A stretch of DNA of 64,000 nucleotides from a virus: the IMG/VR virus record IMGVR_UViG_3300010403_000003, positions 1 to 64,000 of that record, one strand, 5' to 3'. The translations under genes were made by a program, and so were the position numbers. Positions 7,951 to 40,810 of the stretch are shown piece by piece. Within the stretch, counting starts at the first letter, position 1. Each line of letters opens with the position of its first letter. The notes beneath the pieces were generated by a model. The model did no database searches, was not told the origin of the DNA, and saw nothing but the letters and a program-made list of their open reading frames with translations.

Positions 7951-9232
7951 GTGTTTGCAATGGCAAGAGTGAACCGGTGTCCGGATCAAGGAACGATTCC
8001 CACGGCGGATTGTCGCCGAGTTTCGTCTTGATTGTATCGTACCGGCGACCACCCACGGCGAGGCGGCGGCGGCGCTCGTCGGCGGTGGCATACCAATCCC
8101 TATAAGAAACCGGATCGGGAGCGACTTCGCTTTGAGCGTTTCGAAAAACGGCGGTCAACGCCGGGTCGTTTTCGATGTAGTCGGCTGGAAAAAGCACCGG
8201 AGTTCGGTAACAGCGACACCCCCAAGCCATTATGCTTCCATCGCGAGGCGACTCCAATGGTGGGGCCGGACACTCATCCATACCCTTTTGGCCCGGTTTT
8301 GGGTCCAAGTAATAGATTTGGCCATTCCTGGCGGCGTGTGCGGGCCTAGTGTTTTCATCTAATACGCTGTGGATTTGCCATCCTTGAATCATGTCGCCTA
8401 AGCCGAGATGCGCCTCATGATTCGCTTCGTTGAACACTCTCAAGCTTTCGCTTCTCGCAATCCGCCGCGCAGTCGAACGCACCCCGTCAACCACCGGGAC
8501 CAAGTCCCGAGCAATCTGCGACGTCATCTTCCCTTGCGCCACGCCCTGCCCGACGATCTGCGCCAATTGCTGCGGCGTCGCCGAAGTCCGCGTGGCCCCC
8601 TCCAGCCGTTGCTCCCACGTCACCCCGGCCACGGGTGCGTAAACGATGCGGTTAACTTGCTCCTGCGACGGCGGCGGGAAGAGGAACCCGGCGAACGCCT
8701 CGCGCTTCTCTGCGGCGGACAATTCATCTTCGGTCGGTTCCGGTGCCGTGTATTCGGGCCGCACGCCGAAGCGAAAAGCCGGCTCGCCAGGCGATGTCAG
8801 TCCGAGCGCCCGCAAGACGATTTCGACGATGCCGGGTTTTTGCGGGCCGCTCGGCAAGACGCTGGGCCAGGTGTCGTCTTCGAGGAGCAGCGATTCTTGG
8901 GCCGGGGCGATACGCTGCAAGGCGGCGGCGCGGAGGTAATTCGTCGGGAGAATGCCGAGCGTTTCGAGGGCCGCACGATGACCGTGGCGCGTCATGCGGT
9001 CGAGCGAATGGGCGATGGATTGCTTAGCGACGGGAAGGATACCGGCGAGGGCCGTCTGGGCGTATTGCTGGGCACGGAAAGGAGATTGCTCCGAAATAGC
9101 GGCCATGAGGCGACGCCACTGGCTAATGATCTGGCGATCCACGGTGTTGGCGGCGCGGTCAGCCATCAGGACCGCGTCTATCTGGCGAGCCGTGGCGCGG
9201 GCGGCAATGCGGGAGGAAAGATGATTGCTCAA
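7841..9232 (-). CDS. Head morphogenesis protein, Mu gpF / SPP1 gp7 family
   Basis: 463 residues. The start is a TTG at 9232 overlapping the portal stop as TTGA. The family signature is at ~265-310: RIARSESLRVFNEANHEAH, GWQIHSVLDENTRPAH, then a GCRCYRTPV segment, as in minor head proteins that bind the portal and enter with DNA. Preceding region: SATPQQLAQIVGQGVAQG and TSQIARDL helices. It directly follows the portal gene, the usual order in such phages. Confidence 0.85.
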   Translation of the reverse strand: MSNHLSSRIAARATARQIDAVLMADRAANTVDRQIISQWRRLMAAISEQSPFRAQQYAQTALAGILPVAKQSIAHSLDRMTRHGHRAALETLGILPTNYLRAAALQRIAPAQESLLLEDDTWPSVLPSGPQKPGIVEIVLRALGLTSPGEPAFRFGVRPEYTAPEPTEDELSAAEKREAFAGFLFPPPSQEQVNRIVYAPVAGVTWEQRLEGATRTSATPQQLAQIVGQGVAQGKMTSQIARDLVPVVDGVRSTARRIARSESLRVFNEANHEAHLGLGDMIQGWQIHSVLDENTRPAHAARNGQIYYLDPKPGQKGMDECPAPPLESPRDGSIMAWGCRCYRTPVLFPADYIENDPALTAVFRNAQSEVAPDPVSYRDWYATADERRRRLAVGGRRYDTIKTKLGDNPPWESFLDPDTGSLLPLQTLSREHPETRTKRIGEVRGLIDQRAAALRRVLAFGSV

Positions 9233-12200
9233 ATGTTCGCCCTAAATCCTGATCCGACTCGATGAGCGATTGTCTGTAAAATCGTCTTTTTCAACTCAGC
9301 AAGAGTGCCTCTCGGAGTTACGCCCAAAACACGCTGCGCCGCGTCTTTCACTTGCCCATTTGGTAATACATCGAGGGCGGACCGCACTTTGTTTTGCAAC
9401 TCGGCCCAATCCGCCTGGAACCGCTCCGAGTCCTTTCCTTTCTCGTCGGCACTGATCTTGCGAGCCAAGACGCCGGCCTCCTCATGAAGTTTGGCCAACC
9501 CATCAGCCGAAGCGAATTCGCTGCCTCCATCCTTCTTGGGCGCTGTTTCGCTCGCCGGCTTCGCTCGCTCATGCTGTTCGCGGCGTGATTTGATTTTCTC
9601 GCCGATGCGATCAACCAGTTCGCTCTTAGTCCCGCGAACGTCATTGATCCCAAACTTGCCGGCAAGCAGTTTGATCTGCGGTACACTCATCTCGTTCGAG
9701 ATCGACGCCATCGCCGCATCAACCTTCTCGAAAAGCTTGTCATCGGTCAGTGCCGAATCAAAAAGCTTCTTGACGTGCTCGTGCGCGGCGTCCAGCGTGG
9801 CGGCGTCTTCGGCCTTCTCGTGGGGCTTCGCCTTGACGACGTTTTCGGGGGCTGGCGCGGCGTTGGGAGCGGCCGGAAGTGGCTTCGGCATGTCCTTCGC
9901 TGAAGCCAATCTTTCCAATTCTTCCTTAATCATTTTAGCGACATCGTATTTCTCACGAAATGTTTTTTCAGCAACATCCTCCCAATGCTCATCGCCGATC
10001 ATGCCATTCTGGTCAGCCGTAGCCTCGACCTGATTGTACACCTTGTCGGCGGCTTTTTTGGCGGAAGGGAAGGCGGTTGAATAATCAAAGGCTCCGTCCA
10101 GAAAATCAGTTATCACGGCTTCGATGGTCGTTTTGCCGCTACGAACGTCGTTTGCGACTTCGCGGAACCAGCTTTTATTTGGTTTGAATGGCTGATTTGC
10201 GCTTTCCTCCTTCGCCGGCTCCCCAAACTCCTTCCCCAAGTCGAAATCGCCGATATCGTGATGCGTCGCCAATCCCGCCAGCGCCACCTTCGCCGCCATC
10301 GCCTTCCGTTGCGCCGCCGGGTCCGCATCGTCCGCGTGCTTCGCGATCGCCTCTTCGAGTTTCGCCTTCGCGTCCTTGCCCCAAAGTTTCACGGCCTGCT
10401 CGGCGAGGTCTTTCGCCTTCGGGTGGCTCGCGTGGCTGACGTCGATTGCCGTCGGGCCGGCGACGTGATGGCCGTCTTGGTAGTGTTGCTTGTGTCCGAG
10501 GCGGTCGGTGAGGACGCCGGTGAAGCCGGATTCGAGGAGGAAGGCTTCGAAATCTTCACTCTCGACGACCGGCTCCGACTCATCCGCCATCACCGCCACC
10601 ATGAACTCCTTGCCGAGTCGCGCGATCTCTTCGGGCGTCAGCGTCGCCTCTTCGCTCTCCATGGCCGGCGTTCCTTTGCCCTTGAACCATCGCACCAGTT
10701 CCGCGACCGCGACAATGGGCGCAGGCCCGATGATCGTCCCCCCAGGCAAGGGAAATGCCGCAATCCCAGCGCCAATAATCGCCAACGCCGTCGGCCGGCC
10801 ATAGCGCGCCTCGAGGCGATCATAATGCCCTTTCACTTTCACCTTGGCCGCTTGCATCACCTTCGCGGGAATCTTGCTGGCATAGCTGGCCCAGGTTTCG
10901 ACGTGCTTGTCTGGAGATGCCGGTGCGTCTTTCGGAGCGGCTACTTGCTTGCCGTTTTGCCAGTGGTGGCCATGGGCGTCTATGCCGGTGAAATTTTCGA
11001 GGACGTCGCGCGATTCCCTTAACGGCCCCTTAAGCTTCAAAATCATATTGAAATTGTCGTCGCCTCTTTTAATGCCATGATCGAGCATGGCTTGCAAGCG
11101 AGCGTTCTCTGCTTCTCGCCCTTTTCTTCCTAGTCGTGGGCGCTCATTCACCTGTTGCATCTCGATTTCGCCGCGATCCCACATCCCCTGCAATTGCTTG
11201 TGAAATTCGGGGAGAGTCAGCGGTGCATCGCCCGCTTTTTGCCGGTCATGATTTACTTGCGCGAAAGCCCGATGGATATCGATTAAGCCGTCTTGGAATT
11301 GCGGCATCCTTTTAAGCAAGTCCAAAGACTGATGAATCTGCTCATCGGCCGGCTTTCCGCTTCCAGATTTCTGCGTGGCATTGGCGGCAGGCGCAGCCGC
11401 TTGAGCCGTGTCGCCTTTTTCAAGCTCCATCTCGATACGGCCAAGGACTGTCGTGTAATCCATGTATTTACGTTTAGCTTCCTCGATCTTAGCCTTCGCC
11501 TTGTCTCCGTATTTCTGTATCAGTTGATCCGCATAGCCGCGTATTTTGTCTGGCGACGTTGCGTCCTTTGCCGCATCGCGCTGAACACCCGGCTTGTTAA
11601 GGTCGTCTCGCGCGACCTGCTTACCGTCGGACCATTTGTGCCCGTGGGAATCAATTCCGGTGAAACCAGCCTCCATCAGTTCCAACGATTCGAGACTGGC
11701 GAGCATCCCAGCCAACGGATCGCCGCCGCTCGGCTGTGGCCCACCCGATGGCCCCCCTCCTCCACCACCAAACGGATCGCCCCCATCCCCCGGCATCGGC
11801 AGCGCCCCGCCCTGTTGCCCAAACTTCGCGTCAAACTCCTCGTTGTTCGCCGCCTCATGGTCCGGGTCCAATCCCCGCTCGCCCTGCGCCGTCTTGACGC
11901 TTTTAATCTTCGTACCGATGAGAATCTGATCTTCCTGCGCCGTTTGCAGCGGATCGCGAACGCTGATCGTGGGGGCCGTCACTTGCAACTCGACGACGTC
12001 GAGTGTGTTTTCGGCAAGCAGGCCGCACTTCATGCCCCACTTGATGGCGCGGAGGACGATGATCATGAAAGCGGTCTTGAAATGGCCTTGCGTGACTTCG
12101 GACGCGATAACGAAGGGCGCGCCAGCTTCTTTTGAGGAGCTGTAATTTGCGTTCGAGGCATCGCCCGTCATGTACTCGGGCGCAGCGAACACGGCTCCGC

Positions 12201-13431
12201 ATTGCCGCAGATCGCCCTGCAAAACCTCCAAGTGCTCGCTCGCTCCCACCGCTTGCGGCCACACCGGCTTTTGCCCCATCGGAATCCGCCGCGTCGATCC
12301 CGGCCGCGTGCGTTCCTGCGTCTCGGTTTTCCCGCTGACCGGGTTCGTGAATTGCCGCTCGGATAAGCGCGTGGCCAGCGATTGCACCTGGGCCTCGCTC
12401 GCCACCTCATGCTGCCAGATTTCAGCCGTCGCCGCGCGGACGCCGCTCGACGTGCTCACGTTCCGCATAAGCTTGGACGCCCGCTCCAATGAATCGACCA
12501 TGTCGAGCGAGAACGCCGGCAGGCCCCGCTTCGTCGCCGCGTCCTCTTCGAGATTCTTGAGATGCACAATCTCCGACGCCGGCACATATTCGCCCTCTTG
12601 CCCGTCGTTGCGGGTGCCCTTGTACTTGACGTAGTATTCCTTGATGTCCTCTTCGTCTTCGAAAGGTTCCGTCTGGTGGCGCATGCCGTAAGACCAGCCC
12701 GTGCCGTCCCCGGATTGCGGCGGGTCCGTCACCTGCTCCGGTTCCACGAACCGCACAAAAGTCATGCCCCGAAGTTCACTTTCCTCGTCCTCCACGAAGA
12801 AAAGCCGAAAGATCGTCTCGCCATCGCGCCACACGCGGCGGCCCGATTCCCACTCGCGCGATGAACTAACAATCGACGCATCGGGGTCCGGGTTGACGCT
12901 CGCAGTGAAGCGATTCGTCATCAGGAATTTGTCAACGAATGCCTGGGTTTGCTTGACGATTTGTGTGTCTTGCGGGTTCGCCTGGACGCCGGGCGACTCG
13001 GGGGCGGCGTCCCGGTTTTCTTTCGGTTGGATTTCGTACGTGAAGCCTTTGCCGATGTTGTGCGTTAATAGGTTGAAGAGAAGGCTTCGCGCATAGGAAT
13101 TCTTGCGGGATATGATGCGCGAGCGTTGGCGATACTGGCCCAACTCAAATTCGTTCCGCCAAATCGGATAATTGTCCCCGCGCTTGCGATCGCTGACGAC
13201 CGAAACGGGCAGCCAATATCCGGAACCCGCATTGCCGTAGCGCTCTTGGAAGAGGTCGAATAGCGCGTCCGAGCCGCCGAACCCGTCGTACATTTGCGCC
13301 CACATGACGGATTCGACGAGTCGCCGCGCCCGCTCTTGGCTCTCCAAAAGCGACTGTTCTTGCGGCGGTTTTTGCTCGCCGTTTGGGGGTTTTCCGTTGG
13401 CCGGCTCGGGAGTGGCGGTGTCGGTTGGCAT
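9229..13431 (-). CDS. Portal protein with very long repeat-bearing C-terminal extension
   Basis: 1400 residues from an ATG at 13431 (a TTG at 13467 is possible), about 2.5 times a normal portal. Residues ~30-550 carry the portal: RSRIISRKNSYARSLLFNLL, VRFVEPEQVTDPP, YVPASEIVHLKN and PEYMTGDASNANYSSSKEAG, as in lambda-type portals. The rest (~560-1400) is an extension with three copies of a small motif, FTGIDSHGHKWSDGKQV near 594, FTGIDAHGHHWQNGKQV near 819 and a variant, FTGVLTDRLGHKQHYQDG, near 979. It also has a Gly/Ala hydrophobic stretch near 890 (LAIIGAGIAAFPLPGG) and a SAP-like helix pair (MSVPQIKLLAGKFGI) near 1265. The extension is a single open frame without stops. Confidence 0.85.
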   Translation of the reverse strand: MPTDTATPEPANGKPPNGEQKPPQEQSLLESQERARRLVESVMWAQMYDGFGGSDALFDLFQERYGNAGSGYWLPVSVVSDRKRGDNYPIWRNEFELGQYRQRSRIISRKNSYARSLLFNLLTHNIGKGFTYEIQPKENRDAAPESPGVQANPQDTQIVKQTQAFVDKFLMTNRFTASVNPDPDASIVSSSREWESGRRVWRDGETIFRLFFVEDEESELRGMTFVRFVEPEQVTDPPQSGDGTGWSYGMRHQTEPFEDEEDIKEYYVKYKGTRNDGQEGEYVPASEIVHLKNLEEDAATKRGLPAFSLDMVDSLERASKLMRNVSTSSGVRAATAEIWQHEVASEAQVQSLATRLSERQFTNPVSGKTETQERTRPGSTRRIPMGQKPVWPQAVGASEHLEVLQGDLRQCGAVFAAPEYMTGDASNANYSSSKEAGAPFVIASEVTQGHFKTAFMIIVLRAIKWGMKCGLLAENTLDVVELQVTAPTISVRDPLQTAQEDQILIGTKIKSVKTAQGERGLDPDHEAANNEEFDAKFGQQGGALPMPGDGGDPFGGGGGGPSGGPQPSGGDPLAGMLASLESLELMEAGFTGIDSHGHKWSDGKQVARDDLNKPGVQRDAAKDATSPDKIRGYADQLIQKYGDKAKAKIEEAKRKYMDYTTVLGRIEMELEKGDTAQAAAPAANATQKSGSGKPADEQIHQSLDLLKRMPQFQDGLIDIHRAFAQVNHDRQKAGDAPLTLPEFHKQLQGMWDRGEIEMQQVNERPRLGRKGREAENARLQAMLDHGIKRGDDNFNMILKLKGPLRESRDVLENFTGIDAHGHHWQNGKQVAAPKDAPASPDKHVETWASYASKIPAKVMQAAKVKVKGHYDRLEARYGRPTALAIIGAGIAAFPLPGGTIIGPAPIVAVAELVRWFKGKGTPAMESEEATLTPEEIARLGKEFMVAVMADESEPVVESEDFEAFLLESGFTGVLTDRLGHKQHYQDGHHVAGPTAIDVSHASHPKAKDLAEQAVKLWGKDAKAKLEEAIAKHADDADPAAQRKAMAAKVALAGLATHHDIGDFDLGKEFGEPAKEESANQPFKPNKSWFREVANDVRSGKTTIEAVITDFLDGAFDYSTAFPSAKKAADKVYNQVEATADQNGMIGDEHWEDVAEKTFREKYDVAKMIKEELERLASAKDMPKPLPAAPNAAPAPENVVKAKPHEKAEDAATLDAAHEHVKKLFDSALTDDKLFEKVDAAMASISNEMSVPQIKLLAGKFGINDVRGTKSELVDRIGEKIKSRREQHERAKPASETAPKKDGGSEFASADGLAKLHEEAGVLARKISADEKGKDSERFQADWAELQNKVRSALDVLPNGQVKDAAQRVLGVTPRGTLAELKKTILQTIAHRVGSGFRANI

Positions 13432-13463
13432 ATTTGGAAGATATGCCAGAATGGGTTGTTCTC

Positions 13464-13694
13464 TCAATTTGCTGGACTACTCATCGCGGGAACCATAACT
13501 GGCCAATCATTCGGCTTGGCTTCGGCAATTCCCAACTTAACCATGAGATCGGCGTAAAACGTCGCGTAAATGTCCGCCTCGCATGGATGATCGATCCTGA
13601 TTCGACTCGCCGACGCCGACAAGTCGCCTTCCGTTTTGAAACGGGTAAAAATACCGGCTCGCCGATATGCTTGTGCTCGTTGGATAGCGAACAA
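13464..13694 (-). CDS. Small protein between TerL and portal (uncertain frame)
   Basis: The frame gives 76 residues from a TTG at 13694, ending CEADIYATFYADLMVKLGIAEAKPND. Another minus frame (13537-13746) starts with ATG and encodes MEKDVVFFNGIEFVRYPTS, which resembles the N-terminus of phage HNH-type proteins before becoming unconvincing. The region could be one small gene or a frameshifted HNH remnant whose two halves lie in different frames. Confidence 0.4.
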   Translation of the reverse strand: MFAIQRAQAYRRAGIFTRFKTEGDLSASASRIRIDHPCEADIYATFYADLMVKLGIAEAKPNDWPVMVPAMSSPAN

Positions 13695-15414: not shown

Positions 15415-16297
15415 CTATTCGCTAGGCGATTCTTCAACATCACCCATTTCGACAGGCCCGCACGCCGCCGTCGCTTTCTTGGGGTCGCCCTTGACGAACA
15501 CAAGCACGTTTTGATGCGTCTTGCCAAGCTTCCGCCCGCTCTCGAATTGCCGCCCTACGCGAATCGGCAGGGAGCCAACGGACGTAATGAGGACAGCGTC
15601 ATTGTACAGTTTAGCCCCGGCATCTTGAAACGCCGCTATCGTGTCGCTGATGAAATTTCGGTACATGCCTTTCTTGTCGCGAACATCGCCGACGACGAAG
15701 CACGCGAAGCGGTCCTCGGCCAGCATGGCGACGCTCGCGGCGACGATTTCCCGGTAAGCGGCAAGGAACGCCGCGTAATCGAGCGTTGAAAGGTCCGCCG
15801 GGTCGTCGCTGTAAACCTCAAGATCGGCGTAGGGCGGGCATGAGAAAACGAGGTCGTATTGGCCGGGTGCGAGCGTCGCAACGTTGCGGCTGTCGCCCAC
15901 GATCCATCGCGGCGGGTTCTCGGGCGTGATCGTGGCCGCTTGCTGCTCGTTCGCGGCGATTTGCTCCGGGCGCAGATCGATCCCGGTGTATTTCCGCCCC
16001 AGCTTGGCGGCCACGATGCCGCGCACGGAGCCACCGGCGAATGGGTCGAGGACAGCGCCACCGGGCGGGCAGAACCATCGATAGGCTAACTCACAGAGAA
16101 CGGGGTCGAAGATTGATGTGCCTGATTGCTCAGCGCACATGCCCCCCCCCCCCGATATCTCCACTGGCGATTTTGTCGTTGACCCACTCTCGAGTGTTGA
16201 TGTTGAGGCTTCTTGGCACTTTGCCCCCCCCCTGTTTGAAGTTTGCGGCCAAATCACCAGGAGCTCCGCTGCCAAACGTCCGCGCGTTTTTTCCCAT
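15415..16297 (-). CDS. DNA methyltransferase, frame broken at a 12-base G tract (phase-variable-like)
   Basis: From the tract to 15415 the frame encodes a full methyltransferase core: TSIFDPVLCELAYRW, VLDPFAGGSVRGIVAAKLG (SAM site), YTGIDL, FSCPPYADLEVYSDDPADLS (SCPPY catalytic motif) and GKTHQNVLVFVKGDPKK. The natural N-terminus appears in another frame, from ATG at 16297 (MGKNARTFGSG, then VPRSLNINTREWVNDKIASG). It hits TGA at 16130-16132 after the G12 tract at 16142-16153. Removing one G, or adding two, joins both parts into one protein. As sequenced the gene is OFF from 16297; a TTG at 16275 opens the core frame but makes an odd N-terminus. The alternative is a homopolymer sequencing error. 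Confidence 0.8.
16142..16153. repeat. C12/G12 homopolymer tract in methyltransferase gene
   Basis: Twelve consecutive C on the plus strand (G in the coding strand). The tract sits exactly between the N-terminal and core parts of the methyltransferase. Length 11 or 14 would keep one frame. Such tracts are classic slipped-strand switches in surface and modification genes. Confidence 0.9.
16224..16232. repeat. C9/G9 homopolymer tract near methyltransferase start
   Basis: Nine consecutive C on the plus strand, inside the N-terminal part of the methyltransferase (codes KQGGGK in the 16297 frame). At nine bases both flanks read naturally in that frame. It gives a second possible slippage site 70 bp upstream of the G12 tract. 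Confidence 0.85.
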
Positions 16298-16340: not shown

Positions 16341-16547
16341 ATGAAACCGCACGAACGCCGCCAATGTGACGCCTATCCCTATTTTAAGCTGGCCGCCTGG
16401 GATGCCCGCTCATTTACGTTTCGCGATGGCAAGCAAGCCCACCCTAGCGAGTCCGCTGCCAAGCAAGAGGCCCGAAAGCCCGGCAAGTATCGCGTGAGCG
16501 TCGTCACCGCCGCAGGGCGAACTGATCTTGAGCCGTTCGCCATTTGA
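16341..16547 (+). CDS. Small plus-strand protein with TFRDGK-AHP motif
   Basis: 68 residues on the opposite strand to its neighbours: SFTFRDGKQAHPSESAAKQEAR, then GKYRVSVVTAAGRTDLEPF (read in two parts). It looks like a compact beta-hairpin domain and resembles small proteins I associate with planctomycete genomes, unchecked. It ends one base before the PLP-fold gene's stop, so it converges on that gene and diverges from the methyltransferase start. Confidence 0.6.
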   Translation: MKPHERRQCDAYPYFKLAAWDARSFTFRDGKQAHPSESAAKQEARKPGKYRVSVVTAAGRTDLEPFAI

Positions 16548-16548
16548 A

Positions 16549-17229
16549 TCACTTCGCGACATTCCAGAACAGTGCCCCCGGCGATGCGTACTGGCGAATA
16601 AACCGCCACGCTTTCGCGTCATAATTCGCGCACGACGGAAATGGCGGCGGATGCTTTGCTGGGTCGTCAAACTTTTCTGGTGCGTTCCAGATTGCCGCCC
16701 GCCCAACATTCGGCATCGCTCCGATTCGCACGGCATGAAAGCGGGCATTCGGCCACGCTTTTTGCAAGCTGAGCGAGAGCGTTCCGCTACCCGCGACAGT
16801 CCAAACCTCGGCCGGCTCTTCGATTTGCTGCGCGAGCTCCGCGATTGCCAAGCGGATCGCCGGCGTATCCAAGCCGAACGGCAGCAACTTCGCCCCGCTG
16901 ACGCTACAATAATCCGCCGCACGCTTGCGGACGACGCTCATATAGCCGGCTGGCCCCACTTCGATGATTTTCGCGCCGGCCGCGATAGCTTCAAGCGTTC
17001 GCGGGTGCTTTGCCTTGCGTGCGGCACAAAAGATCGTTGCACGCTTGCCATAATCGCGGGCGCAATAAGCGAGGGCGACTTGGGCATAGCCTTGAACCGG
17101 CGAGGCATACACATATTCGGAATGCGAATCAAAGAGAATTGGAACGACGCGGGCCTTCGTGCCGCCCTCTACAACGTCGTCGCGAACTACGCGGATGCCG
17201 GCGATGTCGTCAATCCTGACCGGCAGCAT
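16549..17229 (-). CDS. PLP-dependent fold type II-like protein
   Basis: 226 residues from an ATG at 17229, overlapping the ParB-like gene by 20 bases. VRDDVVEGGTKARVVPIL (Lys25) matches the 'RDD...GGNK-RK' block that carries the PLP lysine in ACC deaminase and D-cysteine desulfhydrase. EYVYASPVQGYAQVALAYC and WTVAGSGTLSLSLQKAWP follow the same fold order. It ends with PPPFPSCANYDAKAWRFI and SPGALFWNVA. It is shorter than the enzymes (~330), so it may be a reduced enzyme or a binding protein. Sitting between a ParB-like protein and a methyltransferase, it may act in DNA-base modification; that is inference. Confidence 0.65.
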   Translation of the reverse strand: MLPVRIDDIAGIRVVRDDVVEGGTKARVVPILFDSHSEYVYASPVQGYAQVALAYCARDYGKRATIFCAARKAKHPRTLEAIAAGAKIIEVGPAGYMSVVRKRAADYCSVSGAKLLPFGLDTPAIRLAIAELAQQIEEPAEVWTVAGSGTLSLSLQKAWPNARFHAVRIGAMPNVGRAAIWNAPEKFDDPAKHPPPFPSCANYDAKAWRFIRQYASPGALFWNVAK

Positions 17230-18061
17230 TCAGCGGCCTACCTTTCCCGTCCCCGCGAACCGTTCGGCCGTCTTTGCCGAGTTTCATTGCCGGCCTTGCG
17301 CTGCCCCCTGGGCATACGCGGCCTTGCGCTGCATCGGGTCGTTGTGCATCGCCATCTTTACCGTCTCTCTCTCTCTGAATATCCGCCAGCGTGCCCGATT
17401 GTTCCGCCTTGTCGCTTGATTGTGGCGGCATCGCTGTAATCGTGGACGCCCCCCCCCGTCCTATTTCGCTTTGAATGCCCAAAGACAGCCACGCCCGCTT
17501 GCGATCCTGCCAATAGCCTTGGCGGGCGTCGAGCACGCTGAAAGGCGGCACAAGAAAGCGGTCAGCCAAAGTCTTTGCGGCCTCAGATGGGTCCATGCCG
17601 CCCCCGCCCTCTTGGCTTGCAAGGATTCCACTGTCCGCTGCCAATCCCGCCAGCATCGCGTTCAAGGCTTCATTGTCCGTCTGGAAGCTATCGAGCAGCG
17701 CTTTAAGCTTTTCAGCATCGGCGGTAGCAAGGGCTGCGAGCGGATCGACGGAGGCCAACATCAACTTCGCCTCCTCATCGTTCAAATCGAGCACTTCGAC
17801 GGTGACCTCCATATCTGGCGTCATCTCCTGCCGCAAATGCCCATCGACAAGCTTCAGCCGCCCATCGGGCAGTTCGTAAGCCAACAGCGACCTGGCAAAG
17901 CCGATCTCGTCGTAAAGCCCTTGGAGTGCGGCTCGTTGCTCGTCGGGATGGCGTCTGAAATTTTGCTCGTGCGGGACAAGATCGCCTGCCCGGATCGTGA
18001 CGTGCCTCTTGATGCGGTTGCGAATTGCGGGTTCTGGTTTCGCGGCTTTCTTGCGTGCCAT
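17210..18061 (-). CDS. ParB-like protein with methyltransferase N-terminal segment
   Basis: 283 residues from an ATG at 18061. Residues ~20-110 are a ParB/sulfiredoxin-like domain (LVPHEQNFRRHPDEQRAAL, KLVDGHLRQEM). Residues ~165-200 contain LVPPFSVLDARQGYWQDRKR, a block normally found at the start of the methyltransferase half in fused ParB-methyltransferase phage proteins. After a G9 tract (17449-17457) the frame runs through low-complexity Asp/Arg/Gly sequence to TGA at 17210. The fused protein thus seems split here, with a PLP-fold gene between its parts. Frame fidelity after the G9 tract is uncertain. Confidence 0.75.
   Translation of the reverse strand: MARKKAAKPEPAIRNRIKRHVTIRAGDLVPHEQNFRRHPDEQRAALQGLYDEIGFARSLLAYELPDGRLKLVDGHLRQEMTPDMEVTVEVLDLNDEEAKLMLASVDPLAALATADAEKLKALLDSFQTDNEALNAMLAGLAADSGILASQEGGGGMDPSEAAKTLADRFLVPPFSVLDARQGYWQDRKRAWLSLGIQSEIGRGGASTITAMPPQSSDKAEQSGTLADIQRERDGKDGDAQRPDAAQGRVCPGGSARPAMKLGKDGRTVRGDGKGRPLNAAGQD
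17449..17457. repeat. C9/G9 homopolymer tract in ParB-like gene
   Basis: Nine C on the plus strand, coding RGG in the ParB-like frame just after the methyltransferase-like block. A one-base gain would instead read GVHDYSDAATIKRQGGTIGH-like sequence before a stop, which also looks protein-like, so the tract length may matter. Confidence 0.8.
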
Positions 18062-18071
18062 AGCCTCAACT

Positions 18072-18443
18072 CTACCGCCCCGCGTCACCGGGTTCAAGTG
18101 GCGAGAGCGTTATGCGATTCCACGCCTGGACTGCTTCGAGCTTGGTTAGCCGGTGCGGCCCCACAAGGCACGGCTTGGGTTCAGCGCATTGCACGAGCCA
18201 ATGGCTCGAACCGTATGACGAAAGATGCGATCGGCCTCCGCAAAACGGACAAGCTTGCGGCGTCGGCTCGGCGTTGGGGTCGGTGGCGGTGAAGCCGTAG
18301 CTAATATGCCAGACTTCGTTTTCACCAAGATCGTCTTCCAGCCAAAGGTGTTCGCCATGCTGGGCAATGACTTTCTTGGGTTTTCCGCTCGCGTGTCCAT
18401 CGACCGTATGCCACACCGTCTGCCCAGGCTTGAACTCGCTCAT
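18072..18443 (-). CDS. Lar-like zinc-ribbon protein (restriction alleviation type)
   Basis: 123 residues from an ATG at 18443, overlapping the HTH gene stop (ATGA). The N-terminal half (MSEFKPGQTVWHTVDG, KKVIAQHGEHLWLEDDLGE) looks like a small beta-barrel. The C-terminal half has ACPFCGGRSHLSSYGSSHW, then QCAEPKPC and EAVQAWNRI. This CPFCGG...C..C...EA...WN layout is that of Lar-family proteins, which in lambdoid phages modulate host restriction. It lies just upstream of the ParB/methyltransferase cassette. The functional link is inference. Confidence 0.65.
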   Translation of the reverse strand: MSEFKPGQTVWHTVDGHASGKPKKVIAQHGEHLWLEDDLGENEVWHISYGFTATDPNAEPTPQACPFCGGRSHLSSYGSSHWLVQCAEPKPCLVGPHRLTKLEAVQAWNRITLSPLEPGDAGR

Positions 18444-40738: not shown

Positions 40739-40810
40739 TTACGGGGGCAGGATTCGCACCTGCGACCTCCAGGTTATGAGCCTGGCGAGCTGCTGCTGCT
40801 CTACCCCGTA
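40739..40810 (-). tRNA. tRNA-Met (anticodon CAT)
   Basis: Complete 72-nt cloverleaf on the minus strand: acceptor TACGGGG/CCCCGTA, D stem GAGC/GCTC, anticodon stem CCAGG/CCTGG with loop CTCATAA, T stem GCAGG/CCTGC with loop TGCGAAT, discriminator A. It could be Met or, if modified at the wobble C, Ile(CAU). CCA is not encoded. The loop TGCGAAT is a small departure from TTCGAAT. Confidence 0.9.

Follow-up and report, generated by a model that had tools for sequence, protein, structure and literature searches.

A run of 12 G residues, which lies between a leader peptide and the core of a methyltransferase (MTase) in an uncultured phage, probably marks a junction at which a ParB/MTase modification locus is phase-variable through slippage. 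It is found in a window of 64,000 nucleotides, the whole stretch of DNA analysed here, which is part of a 74,016-base IMG/VR virus record. In the proposed mechanism, the tract links the MTase core to a conserved leader peptide read from ATG 16297. Slippage of the DNA during growth would alter the length of the G run, so that a single protein containing both leader and core is made at 8, 11, or 14 Gs, whereas the two are kept apart at 12, as sequenced. The out-of-frame state would leave the enzyme either off or restarted in a short form at ATG 16140. Many phage lineages appear to use the corresponding junction, with poly-G or with tetra- or heptanucleotide repeats. The leader may matter to the enzyme, the MTase product would methylate phage DNA, and the benefit would be a mixed population facing host restriction. 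What the sequences themselves establish is the position of the junction, the frame break, the family-wide enrichment of repeats, the link between repeats and frame breaks, and the length differences between near-identical contigs.

The window locus and its genes

The features of the locus are collected in Table 1. An all-run scan of the 64 kb gave only three G or C runs of at least 7 (12, 9, and 9 residues long), all on one strand and inside 1.3 kb, a clustering that is not due to chance. The G9 tract within the leader lies exactly 70 bp upstream of the G12 tract. The MTase core is read in the frame of ORF 16275-15415, which differs from the leader frame. The earlier note had given these two tracts, their spacing, and the start and stop of the leader correctly, and had described two frames that meet at G12 and would be united by losing one G or gaining two; this holds as well, with 8 Gs as a further joining length. 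The third tract, the start codon one base past G12, and the upstream ParB and PALP genes were absent from that account. A search with an exact 22-mer beside the G12 tract gave no further contig from the species of the window.

Table 1. Coordinates of the tracts, reading frames, and genes at the modification locus (window positions).
Feature	Coordinates	Strand	Description
ParB-like protein	17210-18097	minus	N-terminal half of ParB-MTase fusions; tail PGGSARPA...RGDGKGR
G9 tract	17457-17449	minus	in ParB-like gene, directly behind LGIQSEIGRG motif; in frame with nine Gs
PALP-like protein	16549-17229	minus	PLP-dependent enzyme fold family; phrog_7093, 1.4e-36
Leader ORF	16297-16130	minus	55 aa at G12, MGKNARTFGSG...NINTREWVNDKIASGDIGGGGHVR*; frame translation MGKNARTFGSGAPGDLAANFKQGGGKVPRSLNINTREWVNDKIASGDIGGGGHVR; TGA 16132-16130
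G9 tract	16232-16224	minus	within leader; in frame at length 9
G12 tract	16153-16142	minus	leader/MTase junction; in frame only at 3n+2 Gs
Candidate short-MTase start ATG	16140-16138	minus	MTase frame, one base past G12 (G12-C-ATG)
MTase core	15415-16140	minus	241 aa from ATG 16140; class I SAM-dependent; motif I DPFAGGS, motif IV CPPY
MTase motif IV	15829-15840	minus	core residues 101-104

The MTase core matches PF01555 (N6_N4_Mtase) at 1.8e-12, with 48.1 bits against a cut-off of 26.7, and the same match stands above the cut-off in 35 of 35 family members. Among the PHROG profiles, it matches phrog_12517 (8.7e-108) and phrog_498 (5.4e-83), and thus corresponds to the methyltransferase portion of ParB-MTase proteins from phages. 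A structural model of the core (pLDDT 81.6) has Rossmann MTase matches and a predicted class I fold, the first helix of which begins at residue 11, past the tract; the structure search with this model returned the general class I MTase fold only, with no specific DNA MTase among the top matches. Motif IV is CPPY without exception in 35 relatives, which is unusual among amino-MTases with the consensus (D/N/S)PP(Y/F), where SPPY is nearest, so the modified base is not assignable from sequence.

The ParB-like ORF matches positions 32-205 of the phrog_498 profile at 1.8e-16 and phrog_15396 at 1.6e-15. Tracts at the matching junction, behind LGIQSEIGRG, also occur in five relatives (L003, L005, L013, L020, and L039). 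ParB and MTase are encoded on separate polypeptides in the window, with the PALP ORF and stop codons between them, while other family members are fused. The earlier note had named ParB-methyltransferase fusions for comparison; in this phage ParB is a separate gene, so the locus is classed with the ParB-MTase fusions (PHROG 498 / 12517) as a split-gene relative.

Of the 131 clusters, approximately 39 have a PALP-like gene near the MTase, in most cases immediately downstream and sometimes upstream; it is found at or inside the MTase domain in three clusters, and L082 and L083 are among the loci with PALP linkage. In Pseudanabaena phage Pam4 and Erythrobacter phages, PALP sits inside the MTase, near core residue 77. 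This association of PALP with ParB-MTase suggests that they act together in a DNA-modification pathway that goes further than simple methylation. Between PALP and MTase, a small ORF of 68 aa (16341-16547) runs on the opposite, plus strand; in L003, its 58% homologue sits at the MTase's downstream end, and the ORF looks like a real, mobile small gene. Elsewhere in the window, a minus-strand ORF of 1412 aa (9229-13467) adjoins terminase and head genes, contains several copies of a FTGIDxHGHxWxxGKQVA-like motif, and has no PHROG match, and a tRNA-Met gene with anticodon CAT is located at 40739-40810 on the minus strand.

Repeats and reading frames among the relatives

The relatives comprise 80 from viral contigs, more obtained via a DNA pattern, three phage records (L082-L084), and 22 genome loci; the ParB protein used as a query gave no confirmed loci. 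Viral and phage loci together with the window were oriented by the MTase and grouped into 131 clusters at 95% core identity, and two tract-bearing genome loci were added after this grouping. Across the 131 clusters, the 500 bp ahead of the MTase core (63 kb) contain 34 G runs of at least 8 and no C run of that length, while the background, made up of DNA more than 1.5 kb upstream and all DNA downstream of the core start, has seven G or C runs of at least 8 in approximately 835 kb. G runs of this length are thus approximately 65 times denser before the core than in flanking DNA. The same 500 bp hold the arrays AGGC x15, GCAG x8, ACCG x8, GCAA/ACGG/GCAG x5, GCAACGG x4, and AG x9, and no trinucleotide array in any of the 131 clusters. 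GACA x8 and GCCAA x4 are located somewhat farther upstream, yet between ParB and MTase, and repeats of unit 4, 5, or 7 were found nowhere else in these loci at the thresholds applied. The C runs in L084, L090, and L105 were set aside because they look intergenic.

Such a repeat is absent from 99 of 126 scorable relatives. On the MTase tree, the repeat label requires at least 19 changes, of which branches with good support account for at least six; repeats are thus gained and lost, and all of the rows nearest to the window bear tracts. Linker repeats are scarce in relatives from cultured or named genomes, many of which are short-linker fusions with no repeat: among the genome hits, only L199 (G9, in an element of a Devosia record) and L210 (G8 and CT8), both MAGs, have them, and the linkers of the three phage records have none. 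Of the contig ends within 5 kb of the core, 26 of 49 upstream ends lie inside 1 kb, compared with one of 34 downstream ends, a crowding that would be expected if assemblies broke at mixed lengths or at hypervariable linkers. The contigs of L037, L042, and L012 start in the G tract or a few bases off, as if the assembly had broken there.

The frame of the leader is supported by homology. The window leader matches the in-frame MTase leaders of L096, L047, L018, and L024 with E values from 1e-6 to 5e-4, and in tract-less relatives ...WVQDKIARGDIEGG-MSAGQSGTSIFDPVLCE is read through in one frame. At the junction, tract-less relatives have GATATC-GARGGCGG-CATG, an in-frame spacer of 8 nt, where the window has GATATC-G12-CATG; with 8 nt in place of 12, it follows that 8, 11, and 14 Gs are in frame and 12 is not. 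By these comparisons, the leader belongs with the MTase and its frame is real. A mismatch between homologous N-termini and the 16297 frame had been set beforehand as a ground for rejecting the phase-variation reading, and the tract-less relatives instead encode the leader in frame with the MTase.

Frame breaks are tied to repeats throughout the family. In all clusters, the leader motif is out of frame with the core in 13 of 19 cases where a repeat separates them and in two of 25 where none does, with offsets of 7:7:5; the Fisher p value for this link (5e-5), like the other p values that treat clusters sharing descent as independent, is optimistic. For all neighbouring pairs of linker modules, the frame differs in 29 of 55 with a repeat between and 38 of 210 without, many of these 38 being plain gene boundaries. 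The linkers of the ParB-MTase loci (L002-L193) are composed of short recurring modules in variable combinations, such as ARTFGQDLMRGEHVVG, PGGSARPA..RGDGxGR, LTWVxGDR..LDETSRKILAA, AIPGGG, HPRYYEQ..EEFERDHW, and WVNDKI..GDIEGG. Three loci, L118, L086, and L115, have near-identical MTase cores, yet their last linker modules are unrelated, as if the linker could be swapped like a cassette.

Length differences were also found between assembled contigs that are otherwise nearly the same. L006 and L007 are 99.8% identical across 3.6 kb, and their sole indel is G9 versus G7, which turns a fused leader-MTase ORF into a 25-residue leader, MAKTNYARTFGQDLMRGEHRVGGNE*, and makes them a natural fused/split pair. 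Similarly, L069 and L072 are 99.9% identical across 3.2 kb with one indel, G10 versus G9, and in L069 and L070 a near-identical block of approximately 1.4 kb has indels only at the two G runs, 10 versus 9 in each. Natural length variants therefore exist among the relatives as assembled, where the G count of a single contig may be miscounted. The slippage phase variation put forward in the earlier note is well supported by the conserved position of the repeats, their non-triplet units, the repeat-tied frame breaks, and these contig differences.

Output of the proposed switch and competing explanations

Twelve Gs had been read in the earlier note as the OFF state, and this is unsupported as it stands, since a full core could start at ATG 16140 behind an SD-like G run. 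An alternative with substantial probability, though short of even, is that the G run serves as the ribosome-binding site of an internal start: the core would always be made, and tract length would decide between fusion to the leader and a nearby stop. In support of this, 20 of 41 linker G tracts have an ATG or GTG in the MTase frame within approximately 6 nt (7-8% in controls, p ~1e-10), and NTGA start-stop overlaps follow 27% of linker G runs compared with 5% in controls. In simple in-house measures, as were also used for the module motifs, anti-SD pairing is approximately -9.7 kcal/mol for poly-G, against a mean of -5.0 for leader starts and -3.2 for random sequence. In the window, G12 is followed by a single C and the ATG, with the TGA of the leader at 16132-16130. 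G12 resembles a strong Shine-Dalgarno site, and the fold predicted for the core begins past the tract; a short MTase restarted there would still contain the entire fold. On the other side, most tetranucleotide arrays at this junction do not resemble SD sites, which makes slippage itself the shared feature, and the corresponding Met in tract-less relatives is internal to a longer ORF. Slippage may thus swap a long enzyme for a short one instead of turning it on and off; the output is the less certain part, no firm choice is made between the two, and the long/short version overlaps with the phase-variable junction preferred here.

It is unlikely that a poorly constrained, recombining linker has simply piled up repeats by neutral drift with no switch. 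The linker is hypervariable, unrelated linkers do precede near-identical cores, and the tract label changes often on the MTase tree. However, drift does not fit the strict strand bias of the G runs or the lack of trinucleotide arrays in the 500 bp, and conserved leader modules remain intact on either side while leader and core go out of frame almost only at repeats.

A consensus or sequencing error, with a true length of 11 and a gene that is simply intact, is very unlikely. Homopolymers are error-prone and the window comes from a single assembled virus record, but long runs and tetranucleotide arrays recur at the homologous place across many independent assemblies, tract-less relatives are rarely frame-broken, and a mistake in the window contig would leave the family switch standing. 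An Illumina poly-G read-end artefact was rejected because the tracts are inside contigs, have conserved flanks on both sides, and are confined to the coding strand; it is also contradicted by the tetranucleotide arrays found at that place. Slippage of the polymerase or ribosome at the RNA level, giving joined and unjoined protein in a constant ratio, is highly doubtful: transcription could slip on stretches of 9-12 Gs, and joined and unjoined contigs both occur, but the DNA lengths themselves differ among near-identical contigs and tetranucleotide arrays are not RNA slippage sites.

Beyond the single G12 junction, a broader scheme can be proposed tentatively, in which widespread phage modification genes have combined slippage and ribosome-binding sites at modular linker joints. 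Several serial repeats would then allow the ParB tail, leader modules, and MTase core to be joined or separated combinatorially, in a phasevarion-like manner.

Significance and relation to known systems

If the proposed switch is true, phages hedge bets on the modification of their own DNA and each burst would consist of differently modified particles, with a bearing on restriction escape and on the reading of phage methylomes. The locus provides natural test pairs, and reads from existing metagenomes allow its repeats to be counted. It is also a warning that assemblies may break, or genes be miscalled, at ParB-MTase loci.

Repeat-driven switching of MTases is textbook knowledge for bacteria. 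Bacterial MTases with non-triplet simple repeats in or near the coding frame, where slippage shifts the frame, include type III Mod in Haemophilus, Neisseria, and Streptococcus suis, M.MmyCI with an AG repeat, and a type IIG enzyme of C. jejuni (PMC3498834, PMC4889913, PMC8125046). The phage locus is similar in having a non-triplet repeat in the MTase coding region whose length sets the frame. Unlike those cellular restriction-modification genes, it is a phage gene beside ParB and PALP, and its repeat immediately precedes an internal start where modules meet.

Fusions of a ParB-CTPase with an N6_N4 MTase are known in phages (PHROG 498; survey PMC12704722), and the window encodes the same two domains as neighbouring genes, where the relatives have one protein. 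A term search of that survey found no phase variation and nothing on ParB-MTase linker repeats (PMC12704722). The literature found describes repeat-driven MTase switching for genes of bacteria and for no phage gene family: a full-text search of open-licence literature gave no account of it in phage ParB-MTases, and the accessible portion of a 2025 phase-variation review mentions no phage-encoded cases. Both ParB-MTase fusions and repeat-switched bacterial MTases are thus known, while repeat switching in this phage family is apparently unreported.

Among phage systems, the tail-fibre invertases of Mu and P1 use a recombinase, and diversity-generating retroelements use a reverse transcriptase. 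The MTase locus resembles both, as a phage would be frequently diversifying a gene of its own, but differs from them in that simple-repeat slippage would act on a DNA-modifying enzyme.
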